A DNA stretch of 64,000 nucleotides from Meghimatium bilineatum (taxonomy: Eukaryota > Mollusca > Gastropoda > Stylommatophora > Philomycidae), in NCBI GenBank assembly GCA_034231615.1, contig CM067309.1:38347627-38411626 (forward strand), written 5' to 3'. The translations under genes and the position numbers were made by a program. The stretch's first letter is position 1, and the number at the start of each line of letters is the position of its first letter. A model generated the notes under the pieces. That model made no database searches. It was not told the DNA's origin and saw nothing but the letters and a program-made list of their open reading frames with translations. Positions 21,756 through 63,979 of this stretch are shown piece after piece.

Positions 21756-22786
21756 CAGACACAGTTGGAATGATTCTCTTTTATTCTGGTCATTTCTTTG
21801 TTACCTTGTAGTTTTAGTGAATGTCTGGGACAAGATGTCTTTGCTGAGAGATTGCCGAATGTTGTCTGCTCATCATTTCTTCTGTCTGTATTATTCTATA
21901 AACAGACTTTAATTACATGTTTATTTTTTTCCGTTTATTTTGGAATTTTGATTTGACATGTTGTATGTAGCCAGTTGTGAGATGAATGTATTCTTTTTGT
22001 AAATGTGGTTCAGCAAATTACCACTTTTCAAATGTCAATTTATATTTTCTAATGTGGTTCACATTTACTTTTGGAATTATTTATTCAATATGATTCATCA
22101 AATTACCATTTATAACTGTAGCAGTTCAGATGTTTTGGTCCAACAAATTATGGGATTTCTATTAATATGCATAAACAATTAGGGGGAGGCCTGAACAAAA
22201 ATTGGTAGACTGGGGGGGGGGGGGGAATATGACATAAGCTGATGTCAACACTGTATTTATACATCAGTTAAAATTTTTGAATTTGAAACATTATTCAAAA
22301 AATTTGGAAACAGACACATTTTTTTTCTCATAATTATGCTGGGAGGGATGCTTGATTTCTTAACAGTTGTTGGACAGGTTAGGTGGAGTGAAAATTTGAC
22401 AAAATTATTGTTGATTTAATGTGTCTTTTACCTGTTTGTGATGACTAGATATTTTATAGTTTGGTTCACTTTGGACTTCCAGTCACACCAAGATGGTGGC
22501 GGAGATATCATTATTCTGCAGTTAAAACACATTTTACATTCTTCAAAAAATAACAAATCTGCATGAGGTCCCTAGAATAATAGGTCTAAGGCAAGTATCA
22601 AATACTAAAATATTGTTGAAGGAAAACACTGGCCAAAGTGGCATGGGACTAAAAACAGGGTATTTATGTAACGCAATGAAATCTATGCACCAAACTGTAA
22701 ACAACAATGACAATGCTGTTGTAAAGCATGGCTACAAATAAAATACTTCTGGTCAACAGATGAACAGCGGATAAACAAGGCTAACT

Positions 22787-23300
22787 GTGATTTGGAAAAG
22801 CGACATCAGTGTTGGAGTGAAAATCAAACTGTATACGTCGCTGGTGCTTTCTGTTGTGTTGTATGGTTGTGAGAGTTGGACACTCACTGCGGACATGGAG
22901 AGAAGATTACAGGCTTTCGAGTATAAATGCTACAGAAGAATTCTACGAATTTCCTATAGGCAACATAAGTCCAATGTGTACGTAAGAAATAAAGTAGAGA
23001 TGTGTGCAGGTGTCCAGGAGCCATTGCTTTCAATAGTGAAACGTCGAAAACTAGCATGGTTCGGACATGTATGCAGGCACGATTCCTTGTCAAAAACAAT
23101 ACTGCAGGGAACTGTCGAGGGTGGAAGAAGAAGAGGAGGACAAATAAAGACATGGACAGACAACATCAAGGAATGGACAGGGCAAGATATTTCCACACTC
23201 ATCCGCATCGCTGAGGATAGAATTCGCTGGAGGACTCTGTGTGCTGAAACATCCAATGTGGTACCCTTACGACCCTGAAGGGTTATGGGTTTATTGATTG
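22787..23300 (+). mobile_element. RTE-like LINE 3' end, best preserved copy
   Basis: A 163-codon open frame covers the end of the RT: YTSLVLSVVLYGCESWTL, then YRRILRISY, KLAWFGHVCRHD, and the closing R.RWR.L. These are in the order seen at the C-terminus of RTE-type ORF2. A TTGATTGATTGA tail follows at about 23292. It is 5'-truncated and lacks the catalytic YADD box. Confidence 0.75.
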
Positions 23301-29649: not shown

Positions 29650-30130
29650 ATAGTAAACAAATGTTCGTCCATCACATGATGATGATGACCATTTGTTACA
29701 TCCACTTTTGAAAATTCAATTTTAGTTATGTCCTTGATTATGAGTTCGTAGATGGCTAATAAGCCCTATTCGAGCTGTAAATGTCCTTGGACAGCTTGGA
29801 CATGGAATGACGACTGTAGACGGATCTTGGTCTATCTGTGACTTTCTAGCTGCTCTCCGCTGTTGAGCTGCTGCATTTCTCTTCTGTTCACAAGATGATG
29901 CGCTCTTTTTTATTTTAGAACGCCATGTAGATCTATTTTGTGCAAGTTCTTCCCATGTATCGTGGTCTATTTCAAAGGCTTTCAGTGAGTCCTTTAACGA
30001 GTCCTTGTAGCGCTTCCTTTGGCCACCTTGAGATTGTATACCCTTCTCTAGCTCACCATAGAGAAGTATCTTTGGCAGACGATGGTCTGGCATACGCACC
30101 AAATGACCTGCCCAACGAATCTTGTGTCTG
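29650..30130 (-). mobile_element. LINE 3' end with C2H2-like finger
   Basis: A 126-codon open frame (30102-29725) begins MVRMPDHRLPKILLYGEL and closes with PCPSCPRTF..RIGLISHLRTH, a C2H2-type finger at the C-terminus of this LINE family. The tail is a short GATGATGAT run. RT catalytic residues are absent, so it is 5'-truncated. Confidence 0.72.
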
Positions 30131-30495
30131 CATCAGGATCGTGTCAATGCTTGGGATAGTAAACAAATAATAGAAGGGACACACACCTTTCACAGATGAT
30201 TCCTGCAGATCTGGCATGAAACGTGTATACAAATTATGTGAGTGCTGATATTATAAGATGTACTAGACCCATCTGAAATATGATACTGTGAGATTCGCTG
30301 TCCGTGTATTGATTTCAAAACAAATAAAAAAGAACAGAGCATGACAAAATATTCTTGGATTGTTTTAATAATTACTTGCATATATAATACATTCAGTAGT
30401 ATGAGGTGAAGTCAACAAGAAAGTTACAAATGGCTGGGGCAGAAAATATACACATGAGAATTAGTCTATAACTTTAAACAGACTTTTTTTCTCCC

Positions 30496-35200: not shown

Positions 35201-38200
35201 AAGGTCTGAGTTCGAACTTCACAGAAACTTACGTAGCAGTTTGATGAGTCAGTGGAAAGGCCACATCTGGGGGCAAGTTAATTGTGATTCTGTCTAGCCC
35301 GTTCCTGTACGTAATTTTAGGAGTGTTGCTGCGTTTCCCGCCTCGAGCCTATAGATATCCAGATACAAACATGCGTTACTTCAAGTACTCTTCATTCACT
35401 GAAGGATTTTGTAAACTCTTATCATATCAACAGATCTAGCATCTTCATTCACTGAAGGATTTTGTAAACTCTATCATATGAACAGATCTAGCAACTTATC
35501 ATGTGAATCCATCCCCATCGAGGCCAGCACTGTGATGGGGCTTAGTTCAGCCATCAGGGACTGGAAACTAAGACTGGTCGGGCAGTCCCACTCGAGCAGG
35601 ACAATAGTCCTGCCCAAGTAAGCAGAGAGCTGAAGATAGAGGCAACCAGCCAAAAGGCGCACACATAATCAGGATAGCATTTAATAAAACAATGGGAACA
35701 TATCTATTTATTACAGATATAAACATGTTTCAAGTGAACGAAAGAAGAAGAAGAATTGTGAATACATCTAGCAAACTCACAATCATGTGAATAAATCTAA
35801 CCAAACTCCATCTTGTGAATAAATCTAACCAAACTCCATCTTGTGAATAAATCTAACCAAACTCCATCTTGTGAATAAATCTAACCAAACTCCATCTTGT
35901 GAATAAATCTAACCAAACTCCATCTTGTGAATAAATCTAACCAAACTCCATCTTGTGAATAAATCTAACCAAATTCCATCTATCTATACGCTGTGTCCCT
36001 TGTTTGCCTTGCAGCGTCAGGGGTGGAAGAGTTCTCTGGAGATGGCCTTCTTGTGCGCTGTTTGTAAGCTTGTTCCTGTGGCTTCTTTGATTTCTGTGAT
36101 CCATCTTTTACATGGTCTGCCTCTGGCTTTATAACCGTTATGTCTATGTGTCATAGCCATCTGTGGCATGCTATATGTCGGTAGTCTGGAAGCGTGTGAA
36201 AACCACTTGATCTGCTGTCTTTTGATGTGTTCCAATACTGGTATTGTTTTGGTTATCTGTCTGATGTTATCATTTCTAATTCTATCTCTTAATGACACTC
36301 TGAGTATTCTTCGTAGACATGTCATTTCTGTTGTCACTATTTTTCTTTTGTCTTGAACTGTCATTGTCCAGGTTTGGCACTGGTAGCATAGTGATGGAAT
36401 AATAATAGTCTAGATATCCAACGTGCCCGCCATCTTGACCGGAACAATCTTGAAACTCCATCTTGTGAATCTGTAAACTATGACACAACACATTCCATTC
36501 TCTGGACAACATCCCACTAATCAGCAGGAGTTTGAGAAAGATCATGGAAGAAAAAAAGCACAAATCTCTGTATCAGTTCTTACCTTGGCAGCCCTTTTAT
36601 TCTTGCTGTCTTGTTTCTTGAGAAGTTTGTGAACTGTCTGGTTCTGTGGGACAAATTTGTCTTCTTATAGTATATGCACAGGGAGAAAACGCTAACAAGA
36701 CAAAATGTCTTGCTGTCACTCACAGCAGTAATTCACACTGCATGTTACATTCACAAATCATCCATCTCACATTCACAAATCATCCTTCTCACCTTCCAGC
36801 CTCACATTCACAAATCATCCTTCTCACCTTCCAGCCTCACATTCACAAATCATCCTTCTCACCTTCCAGCCTCACATTCACAAATCATCCATCTTACCTA
36901 CATAATATGACAGCCAAGTGTTAGAAAATACACATCTCCCCTCCCCAAAATTACCTCATTACTCCCATAATCTACAACACCCTCCCCCCCCACAACATAC
37001 AACAAAAATATCCCAAATGACTCCAAATTTTGAATTAAATTGTTTCACACAGTTTTCCCACAACCAACAATGTTTCACACAGTTTTCCCACAACCAACAA
37101 TGTTTCACACAGTTTTCCCACAACCAACAAATGTTTATATAATTTGTATCCAGCTCATTGAGCATTTCTTTCTGTCTTTTAATCCTCAATAATTATGACC
37201 AATAGCACATATTTATTGCGTGGTATGTATAAAATAAATCAGACACAAAATAAATCACATCAAATACACACATACAAAATAAATATAACCACAGATACTA
37301 AATAAATCACATCAAAAACACATACAAAATAAATCTGGTCACAGATACTAAATAAATCACATCAAAAACACACATAGAAAATAAATCTGACCACAGACAT
37401 GAAATAAATCACATCAAACACATACAAAATAAATCTGACCACAGACACGAAATAAATCGCATCAAACACATACAAAATAAATCTGACCACAGACATGAAA
37501 TAAATCACATCAAACACATACAAAACAAATCTGACCACAGACATGAAATAAATCACATCAAACACACATACAAAATAAATCTGACCACAGACATGAAATA
37601 AATCACATCAAACACACATACAAAATAAATCTGACCACAGACATGAAATAAATCACATCAAACACACATACAAAACAAATCAAAACACAGATTCAATATC
37701 AAATCACACACAAGACAGATAATTATTCCAATAATTGTGACTACAGACACAAGAAAAAAACCAGACACAAGAAACCTTACTTTATCATTCTCGATCTTCT
37801 CACTTGCTTGTTGTCGTCTCCGCTTTGCTTTCTCCTGGCGTCGTTTCTTTTGTTCATCCGTTAGCTCTACAGTCTTGTAACCTGACGGTGATCACATATA
37901 ACAGTTCTAGATCACATGCAACTCTTCTGTGTTTCTTCTCAAACTCCTGCAGATTAGCAGGATGTACTCCAGAGAGCAGAATGTGTTGTGTTGTGGTTTA
38001 CAGAGCGACTGTGATAGTTACACCTTTCAGACTGACAGATCTTACTTCAGTGTCAACTTGATACTCTATAGCAGGGCTATTCAATTATATTTACTCGGGG
38101 GCCAAAATGGGGATAATCACGGGCCAGAGGTCCGAATATAGTTACATACATTTAGTTGTTTTATAACTATTTCACTGTTTTAAGTAATGATCCGCGGGCC

Positions 38201-54750: not shown

Positions 54751-54834
54751 TCATTACTGCTTAGACCTTTCACAGGTCTCATCCACGACTTCATTAATGC
54801 TAAGAGCTATAGCCGTTATCATATTAGAATCTAA

Positions 54835-54992
54835 GAAAAAAGTATCATCCCTAAATGTCAGAAAAAAGTATCATCCCTAAATGTCAGAAAAAAGTATCAT
54901 CCCTAAATGTCAGAAAAAAGTACCATCCCTAAATGTCAGAAAAAAGTATCATCCCTAAATGTCAGAAAAAAGTATCATCCCTAAATGCAAAA
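54835..54992. repeat. 26-bp minisatellite, 6 copies
   Basis: Core CAGAAAAAAGTATCATCCCT. Confidence 0.94.
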
Positions 54993-55398
54993 AAAAAAAT
55001 GAATCATTTTAAACAGTATATGTCCACAATGCAACATTATATTTCTAGAAGATGATTAGACTGTATAGTGAAGCTCTATTTTTTTGTGAAAATCCCACTA
55101 GCATTCTGTTTTTACAGTTACATGTTTTGATGTCGTAATGTCCTGTTGTTGATAATCTTCTTTGAAGAAGAGGGCCCTTCAACTTGTAGCATATCACCCT
55201 GTCATATGACCTTGATCTTGTGACACGACCAGCAAGATCTCTTTTCATTGGATGCTGTATTTAAAACTAAAACCCAAAAACCAACTGGAGGAAGGGGAAA
55301 CCTGAGATCACTTCAGGACACCTACATGTCTTTCCAAATTAGGCAGACATTACACACATTTTGTGTGCCGGCAGATTGTAGGTGGCTGTGAATGAAGA

Positions 55399-56966: not shown

Positions 56967-57023
56967 TCACGGTTGACTGAACTCAGTCTCAGACCATGTA
57001 CTTTCCATATCACTGTAGTCAGG
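56967..57023 (-). CDS. ANAPC7: ANAPC7 terminal coding exon
   Basis: 57 nt from a strong TTTTTTTCCAG acceptor to TGA at 56969-56967, reading PDYSDMESTWSETEFSQP. The spaced acidic residues with a tryptophan and a final aromatic resemble the vertebrate tail (DSEAAQWAD.EQWF). Phase 0 agrees with the upstream exon. Confidence 0.82.
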   Translation of the reverse strand, partial: PDYSDMESTWSETEFSQP

Positions 57024-60000
57024 CTGGAAAAAAATACAAACAAGAATTAACATATGACATGACTGTCAGTAACCATCTACTCGGTTTTATTAATGAAAAA
57101 AAAAATAAGGCAGAAAACGGGATTTGAACCAGTTCCATTCAGATGGCACATGTTTGCCACACAACTTGAGTCAAAATGTTTTCTGTACTCAGTCAATCTG
57201 CAACACTAAAAAATTGTGATTAGTCAGGACTTCCAAAGTGTTTTTTTTAAGCTACTATAAATAGGGGAGCTATGCAGCGCATTGGCTTCGCATATGAGTG
57301 ATCCTGGGTTCATTTCCCAGTTGAGGTGGAAATGTTTCTCAGATCGCAACGGCTACCGGGTCAACCCAGCGTTAATTGGGTACTGGATCTGTCCGGGAAG
57401 TAAAGATTACGAGGGAGAGGAATATGGCTACCACCTTAACATAGCAGAGCCACTGAAAAGTGAGATTGGCAATATCTCACTGAGACTGGTAACATATTAC
57501 ACCCCTACAACAGTTAAATGGCTGGGTTAACTTTACTTATGAATAGAGACCGGTTGATTGACACAGATAACAACACGCACACTGCAAAGGTATGTAAATT
57601 CTTTGAAAACCACCAACATTTAACATTAGTACAAGCCAGCAGGCTTCAGCACTACTTGCAAATATAAATAAAACATAAACATAAACTATTTTTATTTAAT
57701 TTAAAAAAATAGTTTTTGCTTCGGATATCTATCTATCTACCTATATTTATCTACTTACCTATACCTACCTACTCTACCCTACCCACCTAGTAACATTAAG
57801 ATTGGAGTGCTGACCTAGCATCTGTCAGAAATACCACAAACTCTAGACCAAGATTGGAGTTCAATAGTTTTTCAGTTGCAACCTTGATCTCCCGAATTGT
57901 TGCATCATATTTATTACATAATTTCCTGTTGGTACTCTGATCGTAGCGTTGTGTGGGTATACTCTATATATACCTGCTCTACTATTCTGTACTGCATTTG
58001 GTGCTGACTCATTTGTGTATGCTCTGACCCATATGTCCTTATAGAGTGAACAATTTTGTTATAGAAAAGTACCACACTTGGCTTATATACAGATCAGATT
58101 ATATACACTATATGTCCATGATACCAATCCATTCATTTTCCTTCTGCGCTGAAGTTAACGTTTGGGGCAGATGTCAGATCTCTTTTATTCTTTCTGTTCA
58201 GCTATTCTGTGCAGTTCTTGAATAGTATGAATATTGTTTGTTTTACTTTCTCAAAGTATTGTTCTTCTGAGTGTTTCTTTTGTTATATCCCTGGCTCTTT
58301 TGCCTGTAGGTATCCATTCAAGAGATTGTTCTGTTGATGTCTGAGCGTAGGACATGCCCGATGTAGGACCAACGGCATTTTCTAATAAAATCTGTGATGT
58401 AATTTTGATGTGTCTCTTCATGATACTAATACAACGTACTAAATCATACTCCTGTAAAAGCACATATACAACGTACTAAATCATACTCCTGTAAAAGCAC
58501 ATATACAACGTACTAAATCATACTCCTGTAAAAGCACATATACAACGTACTAAATCATACTCCTGTAAAAGCACATATACAACGTACTAAATCATACTCC
58601 TGTAAAAGCACATATACAACGTACTAAATCATACTCCTGTAAAAGCACATATACAACGTACTAAATCATACTCCTGTAAAAGCACATATACAACGTACTA
58701 AATCATACTCCTGTAAAAGCACATATACAACGTACTAAATCATACTCCTGTAAAAGCACATATACAACGTACTAAATCATACTCCTGTAAAAGCACATAT
58801 ACAACGTACTAAATCATACTCCTGTAAAAGCACATATACAACGTACTAAATCATACTCCTGTAAAAGCACATATACAACGTACTAAATCATACTCCTGTA
58901 AAAGCACATATACAACGTACTAAATCATACTCCTGTAAAAGCACATATACAACGTACTAAATCATACTCCTGTAAAAGCACATATACAACGTACTAAATC
59001 ATACTCCTGTAAAAGCACATATACAACGTACTAAATCATACTCCTGTAAAAGCACATATACAACGTACTAAATCATACTCCTGTAAAAGCACATATACAA
59101 CGTACTAAATCATACTCCTGTAAAAGCACATATACAACGTACTAAATCATACTCCTGTAAAAGCACATATACAACGTACTAAATCATACTCCTGTAAAAG
59201 CACATATACAACGTACTAAATCATACTCCTGTAAAAGCACATATACAACGTACTAAATCATACTCCTGTAAAAGCACATATACAACGTACTAAATCATAC
59301 TCCTGTAAAAGCACATATACAACGTACTAAATCATACTCCTGTAAAAGCACATATACAACGTACTAAATCATACTCCTGTAAAAGCACATATACAACGTA
59401 CTAAATCATACTCCTGTAAAAGCACATATACAACGTACTAAATCATACTCCTGTAAAAGCACATATACAACGTACTAAATCATACTCCGGTAAAAGCACA
59501 TATTGTGTGTACGTACCTCTCCATTGCTAGCATTCATCATCTCCTCAGCCTCAACATCGTACCCTGCATCCAGTCCCATCTCATTGTGCTTCTCTACCCG
59601 ATCACTTGCCTCACGTGCTCGAACATTGTTCGGATCTAAACTGTAGACATCAAAATATGACAAAATATAGCCGCAGATATCAACATGTAACAAAATATAG
59701 CTGCAGATATCAATATATAATAAAATATAGCTGCAGATATCAATATATAATAAAATATAGCTGCAGACATTAACGTGTAACAAAATATAGCTGCAGACAT
59801 CAACGTGTAACAAAATATAGCTGCAGACAACATGTAACAAAATATAGCTGCTGACATCAACATGTAACAAAATATAGCTGCAGACATTAACATGTAACAA
59901 AATATAGCTGCAGACATCAACGTGTAACAAAATATAGCTGCAGACATTAACATGTAACAAAATATAGCTCCAGACATCAACATGTAACAAAATATAGCTG

Positions 60001-63000
60001 CAGACATCAACGTGTAACAAAATATAGCTGCAGACAACATGTAACAAAATATAGCTGCAGACATCAACATGTAACAAAATATAGCTGCAGACAACATGTA
60101 ACAAAATATAGCTGCTGACATCATGTAACAAAATATAGCTGATGACATCAACGTGTAACAAAATATAGCTGCAGACAACATGTAACAAAATATAGCTGCT
60201 GACATCAACATGTAACAAAATATAGCTGCAGACATCAACATGTAACAAAATATAGCTGCTGACATCAACATGTAACAAAATATAGCGGCAGACAACATGT
60301 AACAAAATATAACTGCAGACATCAACGTGTAACAAAATATAGCTGCAGACAACATGTAACAAAATATAGCTGCAGACAACATGTAACAAAATATAGCTGC
60401 AGACAACATGTAACAAAATATAGCTGCTGACAACATGTAACAAAATATAGCTGCTGACAACATGTAACAAAATATAGCTGCAGACAACATGTAACAAAAT
60501 ATAGCTGCAGACAACATGTAACAAAATATAGCTGCAGACAACATGTAACAAAATATAGCTGCTGACATCAACATGTAACAAAATATAGCTGCTGACATCA
60601 ACATGTAACAAAATATAGCTGCAGACAACATGTAACAAAATATAGCTGCTGACATCAACATGTAACAAAATATAGCTGCTGACATCAACATGTAACAAAA
60701 TATAGCTGCAGACAACATGTAACAAAATATAGCTGCTGACATCAACATGTAACAAAATATAGCTGCTGACATCAACATGTAACAAAATATAGCTGCTGAC
60801 ATCAACATGTAACAAAATATAGCTGCAGACAACATGTAACAAAATATAGCTGCTGAAAACATGTAACAAAATATAGCTGCTGACATCAACGTGTAACAAA
60901 ATATAGCTGCTGACATCAACATGTAACAAAATATAGCTGCAGACATCAACATGTAACAAAATATAGCTGCAGACATTAACGTGTAACAAAATATAGATGC
61001 AGACATTAACATGTAACAAAGCACAACTCTTACTCTTCCACATGACTCACACAGTATGACTCTCACATACAGCATTACTTTCTCCCACACAGAATGACCC
61101 CCCACAGCATTACTTTCTCTCACACAGCATGCCTCTCACATATAGCATTACTTTCTCCCACACAGCATGCATCTCTCCCACACAGTATGTATCTCTCCCA
61201 CACAGCATGCCTCTCAAATATAGCATTACTTTCTCCCACACAGCATGCATCTCTCCCACACAGCATGTATCTCTCCCACACAGCATGCCTCTCACATATT
61301 GCATTACTTTCTCCCACACAGCATGCATCTCTCCCACACAGCATGTATCTCTCCCACACAGCATGCCTCTCACATATAGCATTACTTTCTCCCACACAGC
61401 ATGCATCTCTCCCACACAGCATGTATCTCTCCCACACAGCATGCCTCTCACATATAGCATTACTTTCTCCCACACAGCATGCCTCTACACAAATATTTAC
61501 TTCTGTATTCTGCCACAGTCTGAATCATCATACCATTGTCACAAATACAAACGGCGATGCAATGTATTTCCATTCTCTAGACTACGTCTTGCTGGCTATC
61601 TAGTAGGACCATTGTCCTGCTACAAGATAGATCCGTATTTACCTTACATTCAAGTCTGTTGCATAAATGCTATCTGAATACTATTTCTACTACTATTTCT
61701 ACTGCTATTTCTAATACTTGATAAAGAGACAGACCTGAGTGAGATGTGATATTGATCTAATGCTTCTTGATGCTGGTTCATGCTGGCCAGGCAGTCTGCA
61801 AGTTGCTGGTGTAAGCGTGCAGTACTATGGCTTTCCTGCATCTTCCGCAGCCTGATAAAGAAAGTGTTAGTATGGTATGAGGTTTCACAGAATCAACATT
61901 ATGTACAAGTATACATATTAGTGAAAGGGAATTGAGATAAACAAATGGTTGCTAAGAAACCCTTAGGTGCATGCCCTTTGACCTCAATAAATGGCTACCA
62001 AGAGACCCGTGGGTGCATGTCGTTTAACCCCAATAATTCGCTGCCAATGGATCATTGAGTGCAAGCCCTATGACCCCCAATAAATGGCTGCAAAGAGACC
62101 CGTGGATGCATGCCCTTTGATTACCATAAATGGTTTCCAAGACTCATGGGTGCATGCACTTTGACCTCAATAATGGTTGAAAAGAGACCTGTGGGTGCCT
62201 ACCCTATGATAACAAAAAATGGCTACAAATCATGACGACCATGGGAGCACACTCTTTTAACCAAACAAACAAATGATTGTCAATCACGAATTCCATGGGT
62301 GCATGGCATTTGACAAAAATAAAAAAATAATCTGTTACAACTAACAAGTCATCCCCACTCCCTAAATAATAAAAGTCAATACAGCAATACAAACAATGCA
62401 GTGGAACAGTTATGCCTCTCTTTGAGATGAAGTATGCGCCAAGAAATTGTACCACATGATATCCCTCCTTGTCCTCGTGGGCAACATTTTGATATCAAAA
62501 TACAACATGGAAAATTTCATGCAAACCCGGGTAGGTAAGACTCGTTAGTCCAGAAATACAGCTTTCTTAGGATGGATCACTCTAACAACTGCTGCAGCCT
62601 TTCTGGACGTTCACAAATAAACTAAAGGCTAGGGATGATGTAGCATAGCTATTCAGGATGTAGTCATTAACCCAGCATTTTTAGCTGTATTTATTTTCTA
62701 GGCAATATAAATACATTCAGTAGTTTGCTATTGTGTTCTGAACTATTTTATTCATACTATTGTCCGTATGCACAATTGTCTGCAGTGGGATTCGAACCAG
62801 GTACCTTGGTCATCACAGACTCACTCTATACTTCACCGTCACAGAGTTGGACATGGGAAACAGCCTCAAATAAATAATTCAGATAGTCTTCCATACATAT
62901 ATCAGAATATGAGCATAAGCCTATGATGATGAATGTTGTCCTGACATCAAATTCATTCATTTTCCTTTTGCGCTGAAGTTAGCGCATAGGGCAGAGGTCA

Positions 63001-63979
63001 GATCTCTCCAATTCCGTCTGTTCAAAGCTATTCTGTGCAGTTCTTGGATAGTATGGATATTGATTGTTTTACTTTCTCTAAGTATTGTTCTTCTGAGTGT
63101 TTCTTTTGGTCTGTCCCTGGCTCTTTTGCCTGTAGGTATCCATTCAAGAGATTGGTGATGTATCCTGCTGATGTCTGCGCGTAGGACATGCCAGATGTAT
63201 GACCAACGGCGTTTCCTGATAACATCTGTGATGAAATTTTGATGTGTCTCTTCTCTGATTTTATCATTCAATTTGAATTCACTCCAATGACATCAAATTA
63301 CTCTGTGAAATTTTACTCAACATATAGTGACATTCTTTTTTATTCACAACACATGGAGAAAGTTAACAATCAGATCTGTTAGTTATGACATATTGAAATT
63401 TGTAATCTACCACCGAGTGTGAAGGCAAAACAATATAAATTCATCGCAAATGTGATAAAATTTGTTTCTTCTTCTTCTTGTTCATTCTCAAACGCCTGCT
63501 AGTTCTTCTCTTGTAGCAGGTCAATGTTCTCACTAAAATTTACAGCACAAGGTTGCAGTCCAGAAAATGGAAATTCATTGTAGCCTTTTTTTTTGCCAAT
63601 GGCCCAAATAAACCGCCGTCAGACATATACAATTAGTTTAAAACAATAATTTTATATTTAAAAGTTGGCAATATACTTGTACACAATTTCATTTATGTTT
63701 TAAAAAATAAATATTGTTAATGTAAAGTTTTGTCAACGCCCCCTCCCCCAAATCAACAACTATCATACTTTTTCAAACCACATTCCCTCCCGAGTTGTTG
63801 AATTTATGCACAGCTTCACAGGGATATTACAAGGGAACTAATTGATGGTTGCAACAAATAACTTACAGTTCTGCCCCCTTGGCAAAGTCTTGTTCTTGTA
63901 TCAGTAAATCAACCATCAGATAGACAGGTTCCAGAAGATTCAGGTCAAACGTCATTGCACGGTTCAGATATTGTTTAGC
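56967..63979 (-). CDS. ANAPC7: Anaphase-promoting complex subunit 7, 3' part (4 exons)
   Basis: TPR-repeat subunit of the APC/C ubiquitin ligase, which drives mitotic exit; the protein is nuclear or cytosolic and acts as a scaffold for co-activator binding. Coding exons: 63979-63867, 61851-61735, 59640-59517 and 57023-56967. All introns are GT-AG and phases agree, giving 136 residues plus stop. The stretch EALDQYHISLSLDPNN, which spans a junction, matches the last TPR of vertebrate APC7 (EAMDQYSIALSLDPND), and the acidic tail ending in an E..W/F motif matches its C-terminus. Vertebrate APC7 is about 565-600 residues, so roughly three quarters of the gene lies beyond the right edge. Introns carry three large arrays and one LINE fragment. 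Confidence 0.9.
57115..57170 (-). mobile_element. tRNA-like remnant
   Basis: The minus strand has a B-box-like GGTTCAAATCCCG (rev. of 57119-57131), and little else. Confidence 0.3.
57262..57540 (+). mobile_element. tRNA-derived SINE, family T
   Basis: Head GCAGCGCATTGGCTTCGCAT with B box GGGTTCATTTCCCAG, a body as in the other copies, end GCTGGGTTAACTTTACTT. Confidence 0.7.
57541..58134. other. ANAPC7 intron, unassigned
   Basis: Includes short CTAC/CTATC tracts near 57725-57790, otherwise nothing. Confidence 0.4.
58135..58430 (-). mobile_element. LINE 3' fragment in ANAPC7 intron
   Basis: It reads SLEWIPTGKRARDITKETLR, matching the element at 62935-63275. It abuts the 37-bp array. Confidence 0.6.
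58430..59495. repeat. 37-bp minisatellite, about 29 near-identical copies
   Basis: Core CATACTCCTGTAAAAGCACA. I saw only one internal substitution, in the last copy. Lies in the ANAPC7 intron, ending about 20 bases from a donor. Confidence 0.97.
59517..59640 (-). CDS. ANAPC7: ANAPC7 exon, end of last TPR and acidic region
   Basis: 124 nt, reading SLDPNNVRAREASDRVEK then an acidic stretch DVEAEEMMNASNGE. SLDPN.....A...VEK aligns with the SLDPNDQKSLEGMQKMEK of vertebrate APC7. Acceptor GATGTCTACAG, donor GTACGT. The exon is flanked within about 25 bases by arrays on both sides, and its acceptor is itself a diverged repeat unit (see findings). Confidence 0.92.
59642..61020. repeat. 27/30-bp minisatellite, about 48 copies
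   Basis: Core TGTAACAAAATATAGCTGCA; the longer unit has ACATCA, the shorter ACA, before ACATG. Both lengths are multiples of three, which keeps false 495- and 522-codon frames open on the minus strand. Confidence 0.97.
61094..61490. repeat. 78-bp higher-order minisatellite, about 5 copies
   Basis: Each 78-bp unit holds three or four CTCTCCCACACAGCATG-type subunits of about 20 bp. 78 is 26 codons, so false ORFs of up to 182 codons run on both strands. Confidence 0.95.
61551..61632 (-). mobile_element. SINE-like family A, partial
   Basis: The minus strand holds the core TAGCAGGACAATGGTCCTAC and the ATGGAAAT block. Confidence 0.58.
61735..61851 (-). CDS. ANAPC7: ANAPC7 exon, last TPR
   Basis: 117 nt, reading RKMQESHSTARLHQQLAD then NQHQEALDQYHISL. 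The helix pair with LGD/LAD, A..N....A..QY is the closing TPR of APC7. Acceptor CTTTATCAG, donor GTCTGT (weaker than average), two bases out. If the intron is retained, the frame runs on only 25 codons or so before a stop. Confidence 0.9.
61940..62310. repeat. Degenerate ~60-bp repeats
   Basis: Several diverged copies containing AGAGACCCGTGGGTGCATG. Confidence 0.75.
62775..62850 (-). mobile_element. tRNA-like remnant
   Basis: The minus strand reads CCTGGTTCGAATCCCACTG, a good B box, but no matching head or acceptor stem is visible. Confidence 0.4.
62935..63275 (-). mobile_element. LINE 3' end in ANAPC7 intron
   Basis: A 104-codon open frame reads HQNFITDVIRKRRWSYI, EWIPTGKRARDRPKETLRR and NRRNWRDLTSALCA, the usual closing motifs of RTE/CR1-type ORF2. 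Confidence 0.72.
63468..63625 (+). mobile_element. SINE-like family A, diverged
   Basis: Starts with a (TTC)n run and TTGTTCATTCTCAAACGCC; ends ACCGCCGTC. Confidence 0.58.
63867..63979 (-). CDS. ANAPC7: ANAPC7 exon, TPR helices
   Basis: 113 nt, reading AKQYLNRAMTFDLN then LEPVYLMVDLLIQEQD and FAKGAEL. It is a standard TPR helix pair. The acceptor is TTATTAG and the donor GTAAGTTA; it exits after two bases (CT), completed by G of the next exon to give leucine. Its entry phase is inferred from the only open frame. Confidence 0.85.

Follow-up and report, generated by a model that had tools for sequence, protein, structure and literature searches.

A minisatellite containing a 3' splice site in the APC7 gene of the mollusc Meghimatium bilineatum

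The closest described counterparts of the array reported here are a human minisatellite and the mirages of amphioxus. The variable-number tandem repeat in intron 18 of human ABCA7 consists of 25-bp units, the first two bases of which are the donor GT, and starts exactly at the exon; it is polymorphic and C-rich, one 25-bp unit is retained at about 2%, and skipping of exon 19 rises with the length of the array (PMC5954066). Amphioxus mirages, reported in Adh3, the globins BflGb6 and BflGb9, troponin C and PGBD5, are minisatellite-like tandem copies at exon-intron boundaries, either 5' or 3', many units of which contain AG or GT signals; their lengths vary between haplotypes, their edge units escape homogenisation, and splicing has been reported as normal (PMC3087553, PMC3902484). 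A minisatellite has also been linked to alternative splicing in C. elegans (PMC4039745), and tandem repeats to intron formation in human duplicates (PMC2812944). Here we report on a window of 64,000 nucleotides from the mollusc Meghimatium bilineatum (assembly GCA_034231615.1, contig CM067309.1, positions 38,347,627 to 38,411,626 of the forward strand), the minus strand of which carries the 3' end of the gene for APC7 (anaphase-promoting complex subunit 7), and in which a minisatellite of 30- and 27-bp units ends exactly at an exon.

The APC7 array is a splice-site-containing minisatellite and the acceptor-side counterpart of the human ABCA7 array, of which it is the mirror image, since its units end in the acceptor AG and the array ends at the exon. 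The ABCA7 array is donor-sided, C-rich, polymorphic and linked to exon skipping as far as described, whereas the APC7 array is known from the sequence of a single haplotype. With the mirages as described it shares the position at an exon-intron boundary, the AG in most units and the diverged edge units; mirages, however, duplicate the boundary together with some exon, whereas the APC7 array, found in a mollusc and 47 units long, holds no exonic bases. It was therefore not filed as a mirage in the strict sense, and by analogy it would work in a closely similar way. Tandem acceptors such as NAGNAG sites, at which several AGs compete for one exon, differ in that the AGs of the APC7 array are spaced 27-30 nt apart and occur in tens of copies.

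The array at the APC7 acceptor

As determined with Tandem Repeats Finder (TRF), the array at 59641-61020 (minus strand; coordinates without a label are those of the window) has a period of 30, 47.8 copies, 91% matches and a score of 2039. A unit parse resolved it into 47 whole units, 29 of which have the 30-bp form CTATATTTTGTTACATGTTGATGTCTGCAG and 18 a form 3 bp shorter (27 bp), and the last of which abuts the exon at 59517-59640 without a gap. The original prediction, made from the sequence without database searches, of a 48-copy array lying directly against this exon, with unit lengths that are multiples of three, was thus borne out. Its statement that every unit ends alike was overstated: AG terminates 45 of the 47 units in a unit census, but GTCTGCAG only 24 and exactly TGATGTCTGCAG only 7.

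The unit nearest the exon (59641-59670, minus strand) has the true 3' splice site, TGATGTCTACAG/TTTAG (TCTACAG/T, the slash marking the junction), as its end. It is identical to the 30-bp consensus at 26 of 30 positions and differs at 4, and the chance of at least 26 matches in 30 at p = 0.28 is about 3e-11. The acceptor is, as had been claimed, a diverged unit of the array, and this identity, being in register, supports the shared ancestry of splice site and array that had been proposed. The array stops at the exon border: the first 30 exonic bases gave a local score of 5.0 against the unit, which was equalled or passed by 397 of 500 shuffles, and the unit at acceptor 59640 holds 0 exonic bases. 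The four units nearest the exon differ from the consensus at 4, 4, 2 and 4 positions, while the other 30-bp units differ at 0-3, mostly 1; homogenised interior units and diverged edge units, a feature of mirages, are thus present. Judged from these signals, the array ends exactly at the exon with its last copy as the apparent working splice site and dozens of look-alike sites before it.

The gene was identified by tblastn with human APC7 (a query identical at 565 of 565 residues to a PDB chain), which matched a colinear series of exons that starts at 59.5 kb of the window and extends 23.5 kb past its end. The 124-bp exon at 59517-59640 (minus strand, open reading frame and tblastn) encodes (S)LDPNNVRAREASDRVEKHNEMGLDAGYDVEAEEMMNASNGE, that is (S)LDPNN...NGE, and corresponds to human residues 503-540; this match (E 0.84) is weak alone but adjoins that of the upstream exon at 61735-61851 (minus strand, tblastn and splice signals), which corresponds to residues 465-502 (E 3e-4). 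The upstream exon encodes LRKMQESHSTARLHQQLADCLASMNQHQEALDQYHISL followed by AG (...QYHISL+AG), with acceptor ATCAG/G, donor GTCTGT at 61734 and a phase 2 end. The two exons adjoin at human residues 502/503 in phase 2, so that acceptor 59640 fits the gene.

On its other side the exon is followed by the donor GAG/GTACGT and a 41-bp diverged first copy of a 37-bp unit (59476-59516, minus strand, by alignment and site scores), and TRF called a 37-bp minisatellite of 29.1 copies and 99% matches at 58429-59503 (minus strand, unit GTACGTTGTATATGTGCTTTTACAGGAGTATGATTTA). This unit comprises the acceptor-like CTTTTACAG, 12 nt (GAG TAT GAT TTA) and the donor-like GTACGT. The unit begins with GTACGT, as does the next intron, the first 41 bases of which are the diverged unit copy, in which CCG stands in place of the acceptor-like CAG of the other copies. 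The acceptor-like sites score 5.1 in 28 copies, and the donor-like sites -2.5 against 5.07 for the true donor. Since the 30-bp array holds the acceptor and the 37-bp array holds GTACGT together with an acceptor-like site, the exon is flanked by two arrays that copy its splice signals. The array after donor 59516, together with those at two sampled donors described below (L170 and L093), shares the geometry described for ABCA7 to within 2 bases.

Origin of the array and its relatives

By one fixed TRF rule, 4 of the 24 splice sites of APC7 (12 acceptors and 12 donors; this count may lack a short exon between L009:4448 and 63979) lie in arrays, namely the acceptors 59640, L009:4549 and L009:7612 and the donor L010:905. 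Here and below, L-labels denote stretches fetched from the same 1.61-Gb, 32-contig assembly, and C-labels its contigs. The array at L009:7612 (25 bp, 76 copies, L009:7608-9512, minus strand) reaches 5 nt into the exon, and the context of that acceptor (26 intronic and 5 exonic nt) occurs in 41 exact copies, the true one included; it was the most extreme series of decoys seen. A 32-bp, 4.8-copy array reaches 9 nt into the exon at L009:4549, and the donor L010:905 lies in a 41-bp, 2.1-copy array. Two donors were missed by the rule: 59516, where the array is first called 13 bases in, and L009:5798, where a second copy of the exon end and donor was aligned (26 columns, 24 matches, score 21, reached by 0 of 1000 shuffles, the shuffle maximum being 13).

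Units that include exonic bases, another feature of mirages, were thus found at L009:7612 and L009:4549, and also outside APC7 at L041 and L070, but not at 59640. The L041 unit comprises about 40 nt of a kinesin exon end (minus strand) and the donor GTAAGCA in about 8 tandem copies, and the L070 unit a myosin exon end (SNYLLEK) and GTAATC in about 5 copies; at both loci the sequences plainly point to copying of the exon into the intron. Of the kinesin paralogues L021 and L022, whose exons are 83% identical and whose acceptor is the same, only L021 has an acceptor array, none lying within 700 bases upstream of the acceptor in L022, which indicates that an acceptor does not need an array. At 59640 we can only infer the direction of duplication, because the unit lacks exonic sequence and the gene is without a paralogue: when an array-free APC7 control was looked for, 13 of 13 own-genome matches lay at the same locus, and a second copy of exon 59517-59640 was not found in the genome by own-genome search.

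A dispersed or transposon-borne array was considered as another candidate. No close copy of the array was found elsewhere among the matches listed in the 1.61-Gb assembly, by a search that skips very common words; the 50 matches listed comprised the array itself, 4 short ones within the 78-bp array next to it and a further 45 at other positions with 63-77% identity, and the 7 of these 45 that were inspected have other units, of 25-28 bp. The candidate is thus weakened, a distant relation being possible.

As for changes in copy number, a kinesin intron present in two copies with 97% identity (L043 and L044) has one whole 30-bp unit more in one copy than in the other. It is only by analogy that the copy number of the APC7 array may be taken as labile, and length alleles would be expected on the same footing. 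The stretches L043/L044 and L047/L048 (C21, about 125 kb apart) are 97-98% identical kinesin stretches that represent either a segmental duplication or unmerged haplotypes.

Taking the explanation as a whole, we consider it very probable that the APC7 array is a tolerated splice-site-containing minisatellite, duplicated in place and spliced at the exon-proximal AG. The last 30 bp or so of the APC7 intron, including a T-rich stretch and CAG, would most probably have been duplicated tandemly in place to give the 47 units, the interior ones then becoming homogenised and the exon-near ones being left diverged. The intron would normally be removed via the exon-proximal AG, the upstream AGs being decoys that are rarely or never used, and recognition of the 3' splice site would most probably depend on exon definition, spanning the 124 bp and including the GTACGT donor. 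Such arrays may arise throughout the minisatellite-rich introns of this genome and be mostly weeded out near splice sites, that of APC7 having been tolerated.

Several points weigh against this explanation. With a simple hand-made acceptor matrix the true acceptor ranked 16th of 66 AG sites with 2.23, a score equalled or exceeded by 14 upstream unit ends, and we infer the use of the last AG at 59640 from sequence. Because the matrix cannot single out the true site, and because many decoys at L009:7612 are identical to the true acceptor there, something beyond the local site would have to decide. At 59640, moreover, duplication of the acceptor is indistinguishable from its capture by an array that expanded as far as the exon. 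In each of the 7 inspected arrays the unit is more similar to the APC7 unit than are 60 shuffles of it (for L004, 16 against a maximum of 7); such a resemblance is expected of arrays selected as top matches across 1.6 Gb, and a distant common origin is possible. Finally, the depletion of arrays at splice sites that was observed elsewhere is not significant within APC7 (4 of 24 sites against 817 of 2400 intron points, or 34%, p 0.08).

Splicing and the open frame

Longer alleles might weaken recognition of the 124-bp exon or raise its skipping, which would shift the frame; this is compatible with tolerated duplication in place, and we regard it as possible while doubting it on balance. It finds a parallel in ABCA7, the units of which contain the donor GT and the array length of which correlates with exon 19 skipping (PMC5954066), and the APC7 exon is bordered at its start by an array of acceptor decoys and at its end by an acceptor/donor-like array, but the amphioxus arrays are reported not to disturb splicing (PMC3087553, PMC3902484). 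If the APC7 array has any effect, it is likelier to be on exon inclusion or splicing efficiency than on protein length.

More speculative is a joint reading, which we offer only tentatively. Splice-site-copying minisatellites would be common in this mollusc lineage (about 3% of sampled sites, as detailed below), and exon definition alone would direct splicing to the last site in genes like APC7, whose acceptor arrays have units of 25, 30 and 32 bp and in one case contain 41 exact copies of the true acceptor. Exon inclusion could then be modified by array length, a heritable trait that changes fast, and hydrophobic repeats might now and then be added in frame.

The original prediction had instead stressed protein length: upstream units would serve as alternative acceptors, adding repeats of 9-10 residues of a YILLHV type in frame, so that array length would alter APC7 between individuals. 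We regard this as improbable. In its favour, AG ends 45 of the 47 units, the true site does no better in the hand-made matrix than 14 upstream unit ends, every unit is 30 or 27 bp long without exception, and, as had been stated, the exon frame is open back to 61043 (59517-61043, 509 codons; stop to stop 59475-61046). In human ABCA7, furthermore, one 25-bp unit of the donor-side array is retained at about 2% (PMC5954066). In-frame extension is thus formally possible, and what found no support was the weight placed on the open frame.

A control showed that the array is open in two of its three minus-strand frames. Among the 52 arrays surveyed in 164 kb (minimum length 200 bp), 16 had one or more open frames; among the 15 whose period is a multiple of 3, 11 did. 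Counted singly, 31 of 312 frames were open in all arrays and 23 of 90 in the 15 period-3n arrays, compared with 151 of 10,572 in non-array DNA, so that an open frame in such an array is neither rare nor certain; when a random 30-mer from the same DNA was used as the unit, a given frame was open in 57% of cases. The exceptionless unit lengths weigh little, because length variants are spread by duplication, and frame-keeping is not general among the arrays of this gene, because the two other acceptor arrays have 25- and 32-bp units, at which use of one decoy upstream would shift the frame.

The units likewise bear no mark of coding constraint. The 16 distinct unit substitutions in the exon frame comprised 3 synonymous, 13 non-synonymous and 0 stop changes, in line with the 24%, 71% and 5%, respectively, expected in the absence of constraint, and look neutral on this comparison. 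A Pfam search of the array frame gave no family at E up to 0.1, and human APC7 aligns across the junction without an insert, the second half weakly. A coding role of the array frame, considered as a candidate, was weakened by the absence of a Pfam match and by the neutral substitutions. The open reading frame through the array is thus probably a coincidence, and the added YILLHV residues are unsupported.

Arrays near splice sites in the genome

The frequency of such arrays was estimated from exons with matches to the kinesin and myosin-head families; of 190 such matches, 150 were fetched, and their splice sites were placed by a hand-made matrix and an open-frame filter. The 150 exon matches (300 sites) gave 237 distinct sites after removal of 29 acceptors and 27 donors below threshold, 5 sites near an edge and 2 duplicates. 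Arrays contained 7 of these 237 sites (3.0%), namely the acceptors L021 and L123 and the donors L041, L070, L093, L167 and L170, compared with 541 of 4320 comparison points (12.5%) in the flanks of 27 kinesin loci counted by the same rule. These points, 40 per flank and type, were unscreened for other exons and are correlated, so that the Fisher p of 6e-7 is too small. Shuffled site windows lay in arrays in 2 of 711 cases. The rule misses arrays that start at least 7 bases away, such as those at the donors of L022 and APC7 59516.

Array coverage likewise changed with distance from the splice site, from 4.3% at 0-10 nt and 8.4% at 10-30 nt to 25-28% at 100-400 nt and 17-19% beyond 400 nt (descriptive figures for 28 loci, L019-L048). 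The kinesin/myosin sample thus shows avoidance of splice sites by arrays, and in the light of this depletion the APC7 array looks like a tolerated accident in a repeat-rich genome.

That arrays are generated preferentially at splice sites is improbable. APC7 sites do exceed those of the sample (4 of 24 against 7 of 237, Fisher p 0.012; 3 of 22 and p 0.043 without its own exon), a comparison to be read with the caveat that APC7 was chosen for its finding and that its locus is unusually array-rich, and arrays begin at or within 2 bases of GT at the donors APC7 59516, L093 and L170. Coverage drops toward splice sites, however, and the APC7 sites do not exceed the gene's own intron points (34%); a mutation bias toward splice sites hidden by strong selection is possible. 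Chance likeness of an unrelated array to an acceptor, which might be suggested by the pyrimidine-rich sequence and AG that acceptors share, is already refuted by identity at 26 of 30 positions over a whole unit that abuts the exon in register.

Further arrays near splice signals were observed in passing. Before the L123 kinesin acceptor, a 38-bp, 20-copy array (L150:1070-1835) ends 2 bases short of the acceptor and offers no decoy, because its consensus unit lacks AG. A 39-bp array (L022:1396-1510) lies about 11 bases after a kinesin exon donor, outside the counting rule. In the window, a 26-bp array at 54834-54996 (minus strand) has a unit, CTGACATTTAGGGATGATACTTTTTT, that resembles a branch point and acceptor, with no exon identified adjoining it.

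The remaining features of the window concern the same gene and its surroundings. The intron that holds the 30-bp array also contains an unrelated 78-bp minisatellite of 5.7 copies (61048-61486, minus strand, TRF). A probable last coding exon, PDYSDMESTWSETEFSQP-stop, was placed at 56967-57023 (minus strand, acceptor TTTCCAG/CCTGAC) by frame, phase and an acceptor score of 6.6, human APC7 giving no match there; by the fixed TRF rule no array was present at its acceptor site. Stretches at 62957-63292, 36017-36409, 22775-23278 and about 58130-58410 read by eye like the C-terminal end of non-LTR (non-long-terminal-repeat) reverse transcriptase elements, and three open reading frames from them gave no Pfam match at E up to 0.01. 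An open reading frame at 29722-30132 (minus strand) has a weak C2H2 zinc finger match (E 0.001, below the Pfam cut-off). Elsewhere in the assembly, matches to a haemocyanin domain, which we take to be molluscan, cluster at C15:48.69-49.24 Mb and C22:44.15-44.27 Mb (50 matches listed), as would fit a duplicated genome. In the first 3,000 bases of contig C32 (19,471 bases) no mitochondrial gene was recognised, and ARAGORN detected no tRNA there.

Introns of this molluscan genome are rich in minisatellites and short tandem repeats, arrays covering 34% of the APC7 locus (57-88 kb). A comparably tandem-repeat-rich background has been described for the land slug Deroceras laeve, the genome of which has 31 chromosomes and a past genome duplication, and in which tandem repeats enlarged the masked fraction by 28.39% of the genome (PMC12506671). 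Among the literature matches listed, judged by title and the start of the abstract and with subscription literature mostly outside this scope, no molluscan splice-site arrays were found. The mollusc setting thus appears to be new, while the kind of array is already known from amphioxus and human ABCA7. The present results add a mollusc to amphioxus and a human gene as carriers of splice-site arrays, give a first rough frequency for this mollusc (7 of 237 sites), and provide evidence that arrays are kept from splice sites. Arrays that hold dozens of exact copies of a working acceptor are, in addition, natural tests of AG scanning against definition across the exon.

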